Virus record (IMG/VR): IMGVR_UViG_3300023176_003920
Location: 1-23,741 of that record
Source: a virus
Length of the DNA stretch: 23,741 nt
Reading direction: 5' to 3' (one strand)
Shown: positions 11,460-16,095 of the stretch, one piece after another
How positions within the stretch are numbered: the stretch's first letter is position 1
Layout: each line of letters begins with the position of its first letter
The notes under the pieces: model-generated
What the model saw: only the letters and a program-made list of their open reading frames with translations
The model's database searches: none
Told to the model about the DNA's origin: nothing
Made by a program: the position numbers and the translations under genes

Positions 11460-12188
11460 ATGCCATTACCCAAAATTGCGACTCCAACTTATGAACTTGA
11501 GTTGCCATCTACAGGAAGATTTATAAAATATAGACCATTCCTAGTTAAAGAAGAAAAAGTTCTAATTTTAGCCTTAGAAAGTCAAGACGTAAAACAAATT
11601 ACTCTCGCTATCAAATCAGTTTTAAAAGACTGCATCCTTACAAGAGGAGTTAAAGTAGAAGAGTTACCCTCTTTTGACATCGAATATATTTTCTTAAACG
11701 TTCGTGGAAAATCTGTCGGAGAAGCTATCGATCTAATTGTAACTTGTTCCGATGACGGTGAAACTCAAGTTCCTGTAAAAGTTTATGTTGATGAAATTAA
11801 AGTACAGAAAGACGAAGATCACTCTACTGAGATAAAACTTGATGATCAAATTGTTATCAAAATGAAGTATCCTTCATTAGAACAATTCATCAAAAACAAT
11901 TTCGATTTTACTACCCAAGAGTCATTATCAACTATTGAAAGATCTTTTGAGATTATTTCTTCCTGTATTGATTCTATTTTCACAGAAGAAAAAGCGTGGG
12001 CAGCCGGAGATTGTACCAAGAAAGAACTTATAGAGTTCATTGAAAGTATGAATACAGAACAATTCAAGAAGATTGAAAAGTTCTTTGAGACTATGCCTAA
12101 ACTTTCACATACATTCTCTGTTACAAATCCAAAGACTAAACAAAAAAATGAAGTAACTTTGGAGGGATTATCTAGTTTTTTCGGCTAA
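11460..12188 (+). CDS. 26: Baseplate hub/tail assembly protein gp26
   Basis: A 242-residue protein of the T4 gp26 family (208 residues in T4; T4 base plate protein family). It opens LPKIATPTYELELPSTG, RFIKYRPFLVKEEKVLILAL and KQITLAIKSVLKDCIL, continues with an IEYIFLNVRGKSVGE strand-helix and beta strands, and ends in a helical region (TEQFKKIEKFFETMPKLSH). T4 gp26 acts in hub assembly. Its position directly before a small ORF and the tape-measure gene parallels gpG-type tail chaperones. Near its end lies an in-frame T TTT TTC slippery heptamer (12176-12182), after which a -1 shift continues into the next ORF, predicting a 305-residue longer form. Confidence 0.85.
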   Translation: MPLPKIATPTYELELPSTGRFIKYRPFLVKEEKVLILALESQDVKQITLAIKSVLKDCILTRGVKVEELPSFDIEYIFLNVRGKSVGEAIDLIVTCSDDGETQVPVKVYVDEIKVQKDEDHSTEIKLDDQIVIKMKYPSLEQFIKNNFDFTTQESLSTIERSFEIISSCIDSIFTEEKAWAAGDCTKKELIEFIESMNTEQFKKIEKFFETMPKLSHTFSVTNPKTKQKNEVTLEGLSSFFG

Positions 12189-12216
12189 TTATGGCTCATA
12201 TTGATCTTGAGTCATA
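12161..12216 (+). promoter_or_regulatory. Putative programmed -1 ribosomal frameshift cassette
   Basis: In order: a Shine-Dalgarno-like GGAGGG (12161-12166) ending nine bases before the slippery heptamer; T TTT TTC (12176-12182), in the proper X XXY YYZ phase of gp26 (codons AGT TTT TTC); a 7-base spacer; and a stem-loop in which 12190-12198 pairs with 12208-12216 (nine pairs, one G-U, nine-base loop). The -1 frame has a TAG at 12173-12175 and opens exactly at 12176, while the zero frame stops at 12186-12188, so only 13 bases allow the shift. The cassette layout is like that of bacterial dnaX. Confidence 0.75.
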
Positions 12217-12376
12217 TTTCCGAATAAATTTCGCTCTCATGCAGTTCCATAAATATTCATTAAGTGAGATAGAAGATATGATGCCTTGGGAGAGAGATAT
12301 CTATCTTGCCCTATTGAAACAACATATAGAAGATGAGAATTTAAAAGCACAACAGGCAGCAAATCGTGGCAGTTAG
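12191..12376 (+). CDS. Small gp51-position ORF, likely C-terminal extension of gp26 by -1 frameshift (61 aa)
   Basis: The product MAHIDLESYFRINFALMQF ... MPWERDIYLALLKQHIEDE is helical with a PWERDxYLxLLxxHIEDEN segment, which is typical of the T part of G/GT tail chaperones (a short helix with a tryptophan-containing PWE motif). In T4 the gene after 26 is 51, the hub assembly catalyst, and cyanophage annotations often use gp51 for this small gene. The ATG at 12191 is inside the predicted stem-loop, and the nearest GGAGGG is 24 bases away, too far for normal initiation. The frame is joined to gp26 by a -1 shift, reading through CGG CTA ATT into this ATG. It overlaps the next gene by 11 bases. 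Confidence 0.75.
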   Translation: MAHIDLESYFRINFALMQFHKYSLSEIEDMMPWERDIYLALLKQHIEDENLKAQQAANRGS

Positions 12377-14156
12377 TTCCCCACTTAATCCTAGTTCAAT
12401 TGCATCAGAAAGGTCAACATCGGCTTCATCTGCTCAGAATTTTATTAGTGGTGGACAAACTTTAGGTGAAGGCGTTGTTTCTGCAGCTGCTAATAAGATT
12501 GTAGGTTTTCAAAGAGGAGGAGCTGCTGGAGTTGCTGCTCCTCCACCAAATCTTTCTAATATTATTCAAACCCTATCTTCGAACATTTTAAATAATGTTC
12601 AGGGTCAAGTACAGTCAATAAATCAAAATGTAACCAACATAGTCAACCAAACCACTGGAAGACTGGAAGAAGATTATAAACAAAGAATATCCAAAACTGA
12701 TTCTGCAACACCCAATTCAATCTTACAAAACTTCTTAAATTCATATAGGGAAGCGATTGGTTACATTCAGTTTTTGGGTAATAAAAACAACATAAAAACT
12801 TTAGGTGCAAACTTAAAACTTTTAATCAAAAATTTTAGTGAGTCTTTTGAAGTTGCAAAGATAATAAGACAAACTATCAATAGAATAGTAAAACAACTTT
12901 CCAGTTTACCAAAGGCTACTGGTGGTCCTGGTGGAATAAACATGGACATCAATGTTCCCGGTGGAAGATTGAAAAAGGGCGCCCCTAGGGGATTGATGAG
13001 AATGATGAGAAGACGCCCTGGAATGATGTTAGGTGGAGCTGCTTTACTTGGAGCTGGAGGTGGTGCAGTAGTAAATGCAATGTCAAGTCCAGATACTTCT
13101 GCAATGCAAACCATTTCCAGTGGTGATCCGTTATCAGGGCCAGTATTAGATAGATTTAATGCAATATTGGATGCTTTCTCCAAAGCAATAGATGCATTTG
13201 CAGGGGGCAGTAAATCATCTTCATCTTCTTCATCTTCTAGTTCATCTGGATCTAGAACTTCACCAGATCTTAGTGGGGATCTTGACGATGTTTCCGGAGC
13301 GGGACAGACACCTGGAAGTTCAAATATTGAACCAGGAAGTGAAGAAGAAGCAAGAATTGCTGCTGCTTTAGTTACAGAAGGTGCTGGAGGCACAGCAGCT
13401 ACAGACATTTTACAAGTCGCAGCAAACAGAATGGCGACAGGAAAATATAAAGATTATACTGATGTCTTTGCAGCAGAAAGACAATTTCAGGGAGTTTTTG
13501 ATAATCCTCGCGGTGGAACTGAAGGATACAGAAAGATTAAAACCGTCGCTGATGCTGCAGCTTGGGCTGGAGTCTCTGAAGAGGTAATAAAATCAAGAAT
13601 TGCCGATATGCGAAATCCAGAACTAAGAGCGGATTCTGCAAAATTTATTAAAGGAGCACAACAATTTAGAGCTGCTCCTAGATATTATTTAGAAAAGGGT
13701 TTAGTTCCTGGTGAAATGGGGTCTGATGGAAGATTTTATGATTCTTCTTGGAGAGGTGGTTCGGGGGATAATCAATTTTTTACAACACCTGGGGATATGG
13801 GTGCTGGAACCGAGGCTGCTCCGATAAATTACGATGGATCAAAATTAGTTGCAGCAGCAAAACCAACAGAACCAGAAAAACCAACGGTAACTCCTGCACA
13901 AACATCTCAAGAAGTTCAACAACAAATTGCAAAAACAGTTTCTCAATCTCCTGCAACTCAACAATCTAAGGTAACTGTTCTTCCTATGGATATGAGCAGT
14001 CCTCAAGTTCAATCCCAACCTAAAGATGGAGGTAGTCAAATTTCTCCACCAGTTATGAATAAAGGTGGTGTTTCTGTACCATTTTTAAACTCATCCAATG
14101 GTGATAACTACCTTTCGTTATATTCAAAAATAGTATATAACATCGTAGACGGATAA
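12366..14156 (+). CDS. 29: Tape-measure-like hub protein with SleB-type cell wall hydrolase domain (596 aa)
   Basis: The gene starts at GTG 12366; no earlier start is available without entering the previous gene deeply. Residues 60-183 are long amphipathic helices (IIQTLSSNILNNVQGQVQSI and so on), as in tape-measure proteins. A Gly/Ala-rich hydrophobic segment follows at 217-238 (MMLGGAALLGAGGGAVV), and 284-294 is a run of 11 serines. Residues about 325-475 resemble SleB/CwlJ hydrolases: AALVTEGAGG with E338, LQVAANRM, ERQFQGV and a final GDNQFF. The C-tail (SKVTVLPMDMSS, YLSLYSKIV) is like that of the next protein. The length equals T4 gp29 (590), the tail-length and hub protein, but the sequence match is by architecture and position only. 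It probably helps open peptidoglycan as the tube enters. Confidence 0.7.
   Translation: MAVSSPLNPSSIASERSTSASSAQNFISGGQTLGEGVVSAAANKIVGFQRGGAAGVAAPPPNLSNIIQTLSSNILNNVQGQVQSINQNVTNIVNQTTGRLEEDYKQRISKTDSATPNSILQNFLNSYREAIGYIQFLGNKNNIKTLGANLKLLIKNFSESFEVAKIIRQTINRIVKQLSSLPKATGGPGGINMDINVPGGRLKKGAPRGLMRMMRRRPGMMLGGAALLGAGGGAVVNAMSSPDTSAMQTISSGDPLSGPVLDRFNAILDAFSKAIDAFAGGSKSSSSSSSSSSSGSRTSPDLSGDLDDVSGAGQTPGSSNIEPGSEEEARIAAALVTEGAGGTAATDILQVAANRMATGKYKDYTDVFAAERQFQGVFDNPRGGTEGYRKIKTVADAAAWAGVSEEVIKSRIADMRNPELRADSAKFIKGAQQFRAAPRYYLEKGLVPGEMGSDGRFYDSSWRGGSGDNQFFTTPGDMGAGTEAAPINYDGSKLVAAAKPTEPEKPTVTPAQTSQEVQQQIAKTVSQSPATQQSKVTVLPMDMSSPQVQSQPKDGGSQISPPVMNKGGVSVPFLNSSNGDNYLSLYSKIVYNIVDG
13215..13247 (+). 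repeat. TCA/TCT tract encoding 11 consecutive serines
   Basis: A low-complexity run of serine codons (TCA, TCT, AGT) within the tape-measure-like gene, between its hydrophobic segment and the SleB-like domain. It encodes a flexible linker and may vary in length between relatives through slippage. Confidence 0.85.
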
Positions 14157-14160
14157 TATA

Positions 14161-16095
14161 ATGGCAAAAGATACACCAGTACAATCTCCACTTCTGCAAG
14201 CTTTTAATACTATTGTAAAAGTCGATAGAAGTAGAGCCGCTATAAACAACAGTAAACGAGAGTATACTGATTTTTTGAGGTTTATGACTACCGAGACGAG
14301 AAATCTCGGGTCAATAAGATTACCGAAAGAAAAAAAGATTAAAGAATTAAAAACACTGAATATCGCTACAACTTTTGGTAGACCAGGAAGTTTACTTAGT
14401 GGATTGTTCAGTGGAGCTCTTGATTTGGGCGGTTTCCTTGGTGATATGTTTAGTAATAAAAAACCAAACCCAAAGGCAGGAAAACCAATACCAAAAGGGA
14501 AAGGTATTAGACTTGGTGGTGTGAAAGCTTATGGTATTGCAAATGCGCTATTTGCTGGACTAGATTTTGCTACTGGTCTTGCAGAAGGTGAAAGTGTATC
14601 AAAAGCTGCTGCGGGTGCAGGTGGATCTCTTGCTGGATCTTTACTTGGAGGAGCAATTGGTCAAACACTGATTCCTGTTCCAGGCTTAGGTTTTATGGTT
14701 GGTAGTGCATTAGGTGGAATGGCTGGAGGATGGTTAGGTGATCGAGCTCATGAGGGTATAACTGGGGAAGGTTCCGTAGAACAAAAAACTAAACAAAGAC
14801 TAAAAGAACAAGAAGCAAAACAAAAATCACAAGCAGAGGCTGTAACAAGTCTAAGTTTTCCACAAGTTCTGGACACATTTGAAGGTGTGGTGTTTAAATT
14901 CCAAAGACTTGCTTATGGATCAATTAATGGAGTTGTAAAAGCTGCAGAAGTAGCCACTGAAGACGGCGAAAAGACCCATGCAGAGATTGATCCAAGAAAA
15001 CCAGGATCACCTTCTGGTGATGATCCCGTAAACAATAAGTATATGGCTGAGGGTGGAGAAAAACCCAGTAAATATGTTAATACGGTAGACTATAATGAAT
15101 TTAGACAATATTATAACAGTGGAAAGGGGGGAAGACATGCTGGAGAAGATTTGCCTATAAGCCAAGGAACTCCGATTAGTGTAATTGTACCTGGTAAAGT
15201 TGTTACTGCTGGATATGGTGGTGCAGCTGGAGGAAATATACTAATAACTCATGAAGATGGTAAACAAACAAGATACCTACATATGAGTGACATATCAGTT
15301 TCTCCTGGACAAAAGGTTGAAGCTGGACAAGTAATTGGAAAAAGTGGTGGAGCCCCAGGCACAAGAGGTGCGGGAAGATCCACTGGACCACACTTACACT
15401 TTGAATATTATCCATCAGAGACTGCTGCAATGGCAGATCCCAATCCAGTTATGGATAATTACTTTAGATTTGGCGGAAACGTAAAGGTAACTTCTAAAGG
15501 TCCTGCAACACCTCCAGCTGGACAACCAACAGCTACCCCACCACCACCTAAAAAACTAACAGAAGATGAATTTCATTCTGTGAGAACAGAACGTGATATT
15601 ACTGACACGGCTGATATTAGGGTAGGAAGTACAGATACTTATGAAGATTATCTAAAATATTTTGAAGAGAATAAAGCTCAAATTGCAGCCGCAGCTGTTT
15701 CAACTGTAGAACCAGGAACTTCTACGCCTGAAGTACCAACAACTACAACACCTTCTAGGAGACCAGATAGAAGATCCCAAGCCGCAGCGAGAAGAAGAGA
15801 ATCACAATTACAACCACAAGTTGAAGCTGATCCACAGCCACAAGTTGAAGCTGTTCCACAACAACAAGTAATGACTAAGGAACTAGAACAATATCCATCA
15901 TACAATACATCATCATCTGAAGTTGTGGTAATACCAATGATGATGAATAGTGGTCCACAAAGTTCTTCTCAAAAACCGATAGTTATTTCTAATGGAGGTC
16001 AATCAAAAACGATTACTCCTCCTAGAGTTTCGGAAAGATCACTGTTAAATAGTTTATTTAATACTATGCTTCTCACGAACTTATCGGGAACGTAA
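14161..16095 (+). CDS. Tape-measure-like tail protein with M23 peptidase domain (644 aa)
   Basis: Residues 1-100 are helical and basic. Residues 145-193 are long Gly/Ala-rich hydrophobic stretches (AGGSLAGSLLGGAIG, GLGFMVGSALGGMAGGWLG) that could insert in a membrane. Residues about 315-430 form a complete M23/LytM domain: H326-x3-D330 (GGRHAGED), GNILITHEDG, H374 in RYLHMSD and H411-x-H413 in GPHLHFEYY, so zinc ligands H326, D330 and H413 and both catalytic histidines are present. This family cuts peptide bridges in peptidoglycan. A P/Q/R-rich linker (with a repeated QPQVEA) leads to a C-tail VVVIPMMMNSG...SLLNSLFNTML similar to that of the preceding protein. It lies between the SleB-like protein and gp27, so a tail-tip or hub location is inferred. 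Its T4 counterpart is uncertain. Confidence 0.75.
   Translation: MAKDTPVQSPLLQAFNTIVKVDRSRAAINNSKREYTDFLRFMTTETRNLGSIRLPKEKKIKELKTLNIATTFGRPGSLLSGLFSGALDLGGFLGDMFSNKKPNPKAGKPIPKGKGIRLGGVKAYGIANALFAGLDFATGLAEGESVSKAAAGAGGSLAGSLLGGAIGQTLIPVPGLGFMVGSALGGMAGGWLGDRAHEGITGEGSVEQKTKQRLKEQEAKQKSQAEAVTSLSFPQVLDTFEGVVFKFQRLAYGSINGVVKAAEVATEDGEKTHAEIDPRKPGSPSGDDPVNNKYMAEGGEKPSKYVNTVDYNEFRQYYNSGKGGRHAGEDLPISQGTPISVIVPGKVVTAGYGGAAGGNILITHEDGKQTRYLHMSDISVSPGQKVEAGQVIGKSGGAPGTRGAGRSTGPHLHFEYYPSETAAMADPNPVMDNYFRFGGNVKVTSKGPATPPAGQPTATPPPPKKLTEDEFHSVRTERDITDTADIRVGSTDTYEDYLKYFEENKAQIAAAAVSTVEPGTSTPEVPTTTTPSRRPDRRSQAAARRRESQLQPQVEADPQPQVEAVPQQQVMTKELEQYPSYNTSSSEVVVIPMMMNSGPQSSSQKPIVISNGGQSKTITPPRVSERSLLNSLFNTMLLTNLSGT

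Follow-up and report, generated by a model that had tools for sequence, protein, structure and literature searches.

A −1 ribosomal frameshift signal at the end of gp26 in a T4-like cyanophage, and the short and long assembly helpers it would encode

How is the small open reading frame (ORF) that follows gp26 in a marine cyanobacterial virus expressed: as a gene of its own, or as the end of a longer gp26 product? We examined this question in the tail module of a T4-like cyanophage carried by a 23.7-kb viral fragment (IMG/VR record IMGVR_UViG_3300023176_003920), the whole stretch of which (23,741 nucleotides) is referred to as the window. Besides gp26 and the small ORF, the module includes a gp48-like tube cap, a tail-tube family protein, two large ORFs and a phrog_350 tail protein. 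Among named phages, Synechococcus phage S-SCSM2R is the closest, with a gp26 that is 77% identical. GenBank lists gp26 and the small ORF as separate genes or omits the small ORF, and we found no joined gp26/small-ORF gene in the GenBank regions of the relatives examined. From comparison of these sequences, ribosomes almost certainly slip into the −1 frame at the end of gp26 in this virus, giving a short and a long form of an assembly helper.

A candidate shift cassette at the end of gp26

The gp26-like gene (11460..12188, + strand) encodes 242 residues, the putative short form (G-like, TAC-N), and matches PF12322 (T4_baseplate; E=1e-70, 238 bits against a cut-off of 24.5) and phrog_150 (E=5e-78). 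It ends in ...AGT TTT TTC GGC TAA, where the TAA (12186..12188, + strand) is the zero-frame stop. Within this end lies the heptamer T_TTT_TTC (12176..12182, + strand), in phase with gp26, at which a −1 ribosomal frameshift would take place; in the window the −1 frame carries a TAG directly upstream of it (12173-12175). Nine bases separate the heptamer from an upstream GGAGGG (12161..12166, + strand), a Shine-Dalgarno-like candidate stimulator. Downstream, after a 7-base spacer, comes a stem-loop (12190..12216, + strand) of 9 bp with one G-U pair and a 9-base loop, its arms being TATGGCTCA and TGAGTCATA (12190-12198 paired with 12208-12216). This stem-loop is a second, probable stimulator, and the ATG of the small ORF (12191) sits within the stem.

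A shift at the heptamer would re-read base 12182 in the −1 frame and continue through 12182..12376 (+ strand), an extension made up of R-L-I and the 61-codon ORF (12191-12376) and corresponding to a T-like domain. The predicted fusion has 305 residues (241 from gp26, then R-L-I, then 61), with ...LSSFFRLIMAH... at its junction, and we infer that the extension is made as the C-terminus of this gp26-T fusion. A first-pass annotation of the window had already placed the heptamer, both stops, the GGAGGG, the stem and the 305-residue fusion, all of them correctly according to our base-by-base check. The heptamer motif alone means little, because the window is A+T-rich and in-phase canonical heptamers are frequent in it, with 68 among its 7,414 codon positions; the one at 12176-12182 is the only one that lies within 10 codons of a gene end.

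The gene that follows (12366..14156, + strand; a 596-residue ORF) shares 11 bases with the end of the small ORF and is a tape-measure candidate by position only. The first-pass annotation had called it tape-measure-like; searches of its product against PHROG and Pfam returned no family match. Its counterpart in S-SCSM2R is annotated as 'cell wall hydrolase SleB'. The ORF at 14161-16095 (644 residues) contains an M23 peptidase domain (PF01551, E=2e-23) and likely encodes a protein of the tape-measure region or a tail-associated lytic protein. The small ORF of syn9 is followed by a gene for 1112 residues, which could be a fusion of these two large ORFs.

Conservation of the slippery site and its stimulators

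We assembled 208 distinct sequences, comprising the closest relatives together with syn9-like cyanophages, Methylophilales-phage relatives, and vibriophage, Aeromonas, Stenotrophomonas, Caulobacter, Agrobacterium, Sinorhizobium and Pseudomonas phages. An in-phase T_TTT_TTN was present near the end of gp26 in 193 of them, spanning several phage groups, and the closest environmental relatives all had TTTTTTC just before the last gp26 codon with the small ORF in the −1 frame (80/80). The small ORF was in −1 phase in every relative examined; among the distinct relatives the −1 ORF extended 49-67 codons beyond the gp26 stop and was homologous throughout. The −1 frame of the relatives opens 7-109 bases before the gp26 stop, and the −1 stop adjoining the heptamer, part of the cassette as first annotated, is present in the window and absent in many relatives.

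These relatives share ancestry, so that the counts are not independent trials, and we used neighbouring codons in the same genes as the control. The six Ts of the heptamer were invariant and its seventh base was free (C in 153, A in 20, T in 19 and G in 1 of the 193 relatives); where that base is A, a Leu replaces the Phe of gp26 and the six Ts are still kept. Elsewhere in gp26 of the relatives, in-phase TTTTTT occurred at 17 of 44,938 codon positions, and among 218 further Phe-Phe pairs of these genes the T_TTT_TTY form was found in only 3. The codon preceding the TTT of the heptamer ended in T in 193/193 relatives, whereas Ser, Asn and Asp codons of the gene body do so in 62-83% of cases; TTT was the only codon used for the first Phe, compared with 70%. 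Codon entropy at positions −2, −3 and −4 was 0.12, 0.00 and 0.80, against 1.02, 0.86 and 1.90 expected, and codon variation was near normal at −1 and for most codons from −6 upstream. This conservation and the codon variation lost at the site rule out the heptamer as a chance occurrence. Two groups of relatives of Methylophilales-phage Melnitz-3 vary the site: in one the slippery run merges with the gp26 stop (TTTTTTTTAA), and the other has TTTTTTA, with an altered gp26 residue and all six Ts.

Upstream of the heptamer, GGAGG, GAGG, AGGA or AGG ended 8-10 bases away in nearly all of the 193 relatives. The Glu codon within this Shine-Dalgarno-like run was GAG in 123 and GAA in 41; the nearby Glu codons at −12 and −14 show the opposite preference. 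On the other side, the 36 bases downstream of the heptamer had a minimum free energy of −6.65 kcal/mol, versus −3.05 for synonymous versions (186 relatives), and folding energy peaked downstream of the heptamer. Of 183 sequences, 40 had the long stem type of the window, and among them were compensated changes (G-U/U-G, T-A/A-T and T-A/G-C). Another clade (about 40 sequences) had a second, compact type, GGUCC-AUAU-GGACC, with the compensated variants AATCC/GGATT, AGTCC/GGACT and GGTTC/GAACC. Arms of the two types paired fully in 27% and 18% of cases, respectively, versus 8% and 4% with dealt-out arms. Neither main type was present in 104/183 sequences, many of which fold another hairpin there, and this led us to reject a universal downstream stem; predicted structure was weak in several syn9-like and Methylophilales-phage relatives. 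We take the downstream stem to be genuine in the clade of the window, and to be clade-specific rather than universal.

The first-pass annotation had asked whether heptamer, phase and stem are conserved together with suppressed synonymous variation. In the relatives the heptamer and phase were kept (193/208) and synonymous variation was suppressed at the site; the stem was kept in the window's clade, with the second compensated type in another, and was not general.

gp26, gp51 and alternative readings of the junction

We then considered the identity of the two parts. Besides its match to phrog_634 (E=2e-26), the small ORF matches the end of phrog_150, and it aligns with residues 209-246 of T4 gp51 (hhalign E=2e-7). 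In T4, both gp26 (208 residues) and gp51 (249 residues) belong to PF12322, and their genes are separate and divergently transcribed. By these matches T4 gp26 and gp51 are paralogues, gp26 corresponding to the short form and gp51 to the short form plus the small-ORF domain. Since the similarity of the small ORF is confined to the C-terminal ~45-60 residues of T4 gp51, 'gp51' is a misleading name for it. A 2010 comparison found no counterpart in cyanophage gp51 of the first ~200 residues of T4 gp51 (PMC3037559); if what is called 'gp51' in cyanophages forms the end of a gp26-gp51 fusion, these 'missing' residues are explained, as gp26 would supply them. Homology of both parts to T4 gp26 and gp51 was thus directly observed, and the first-pass proposal that gp26 and gp51 of T4-like cyanophages are equivalents of the G and GT chaperones gains from it, T4 gp51 being an unbroken chain with both parts and gp26 its short paralogue.

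Predicted structures of gp26 (pLDDT 85) and gp51 (pLDDT 91) had a similar order of elements, with additional C-terminal helices in gp51. Among predicted viral structures, the gp26 model matched other T4-type hub proteins. Against the PDB, the HK97 tail assembly chaperone 2ob9 ranked 2 and 9 for the gp26 model at non-significant values (E=1.4 and 3.2), and it was not among the matches listed for the gp51 model. Membership of the HK97/lambda chaperone fold, examined by PDB sequence search and Foldseek, was not significant. The window proteins have no detectable sequence similarity and no significant fold similarity to the solved HK97 chaperone. In the window's record, which is a 23.7-kb fragment only, a second PF12322 gene was not found.

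Two other readings of the junction were weighed against a ribosomal shift. Ribosomes that have terminated on gp26 could initiate anew at the ATG at 12191, releasing a free 61-residue gp51-like protein, as in GenBank. Most records do annotate a separate small gene, and in the window and 75/193 relatives the ATG lies 5 bases downstream of the first base of the gp26 stop. That ATG is not conserved, however: in 30/193 relatives the initial 20 codons of the small ORF are free of ATG, GTG and TTG, and the window's own ATG is enclosed in the stem. Nor is a ribosome site conserved at any usable distance. Within the first 23 small-ORF codons, 188/193 relatives lack any start codon that is accompanied by a 4-base ribosome site and 5 have one, in agreement with the first-pass observation that the small ORF has no suitable site of its own. 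Termination-reinitiation would also leave the invariant six-T run and the lost synonymous variation unexplained, and T4 has both parts in one chain. We therefore consider reinitiation very improbable.

A fusion could also arise from edited transcripts, if RNA polymerase gained or lost bases on the T run. The run is a homopolymer and reaches eight Ts in the Methylophilales-phage group, but six Ts are short for polymerase slippage, which usually needs a run of about nine or more bases. The kept phase of the run, its free seventh base, the Shine-Dalgarno-like run upstream and the stem downstream are all signatures of a ribosomal shift, and we regard transcriptional slippage as less probable still. 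Conservation of the heptamer, its phase and its position, the loss of synonymous variation and the absence of a conserved small-ORF start all support −1 frameshifting. Taken at the level of sequence, the frameshift signal is real and very strongly conserved.

Two probable tail assembly chaperones from one gene

Our results point to a gp26 gene that very probably makes two tail assembly chaperones through a −1 shift at T_TTT_TTC. Most ribosomes would terminate at 12186, yielding the short gp26 protein (G-like, TAC-N). A smaller share would be held by pairing of the upstream GGAGGG with 16S rRNA and by the downstream hairpin, and would slip one base back on U_UUU_UUC, where the Phe-tRNAs can re-pair with UUU UUU; reading on in the −1 frame, they would produce the 305-residue gp26-T fusion (GT-like, TAC-NC). 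The sequence features and their conservation are observed here; the shift, its efficiency and the chaperone function are inferred. By analogy with lambda G/GT, coating of the tape measure would fall to the short form and recruitment of the tube protein or the initiator to the rare long form, and neither would remain in the virion.

The slippery site of the window is U_UUU_UUC, and that of lambda is G_GGA_AAG. The two systems are alike in that a short protein and a rarer −1 extension come from one gene just upstream of the tape-measure position, with the slippery site near the end of the short frame (Xu, Hendrix and Duda, 2004; PMC5009743). T4 gp51, the full-length counterpart of the frameshift fusion, is needed for assembly and is absent from the particle (PMC3004832). 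Unlike the window, T4 appears from its genes to do the same job with two of them, gp26 as the short form and gp51 as the in-frame long form, with no frameshift needed; cyanophages and many others would use one gene and a shift.

Tail assembly chaperone genes of T4-like phages were reportedly identified by Vladimirov, Gautam and Davidson, Virology 2022, 566:9-15, in a study whose title argues for a non-frameshift mechanism, at least in T4 itself. Those chaperones are reportedly the same gp26/gp51-family proteins, in short and long forms. A 2016 review describes the G-T frameshift as conserved in long-tailed phages 'except T4' (PMC5009743). Later papers describe a short gene and a fused long gene in place of a frameshift in some T4-like phages (PMC10885494), and poly-T slippery sites in T4-like TAC-N genes (PMC12846349). 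The latter paper also presents the Vandenendeviridae/Andersonviridae chaperone locus of phage Adele, where TAC-N likewise ends in a −1 shift site, a conserved poly-T motif that reads GTTTTT; its phage lineage and motif differ from those of the window (PMC12846349). Our finding is a well-supported further case of an arrangement already described for T4-like phages, and the principle is not new. The first-pass remark that the arrangement is not generally annotated agrees with the GenBank regions examined, and is tempered by the identification of the chaperone genes in 2022.

Ackermannviridae and Vibrio phage K475 have a gp26 homologue followed by a −1 frame relative of the T domain (phrog_9633/phrog_634), in which we found no conserved start codon and no canonical heptamer. 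Because this −1 T ORF is kept without a canonical heptamer, −1 phase alone does not prove the mechanism everywhere. Immediately ahead of the gp26 stop, Ackermannviridae carry an invariant ATTTTCAT, which may be a non-canonical shift site. Salmonella phage Marshall has the small ORF without annotation. A viral-contig scan with a Vibrio K571 query gave no match. A broader reading, which we hold only tentatively and judge somewhat unlikely as a whole, is that single-gene U_UUU_UUN frameshifting is widespread and perhaps ancestral in T4-related myoviruses, that the T4 pair arose by duplication and in-frame fusion, and that Ackermannviridae use a non-canonical −1 site at ATTTTCAT. If true, and if these groups are absent from the 2022 study, it would fill the 'except T4' gap in the frameshift literature.

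Genome records currently either omit cyanophage gp51 or describe it as a free 'baseplate hub assembly catalyst' of ~60 residues, and one joined, corrected annotation would be needed in hundreds of cyanophage, vibriophage and other T4-like records. The proteins gp26 and gp51, called hub subunit and catalyst, should probably be read as tail assembly chaperones.
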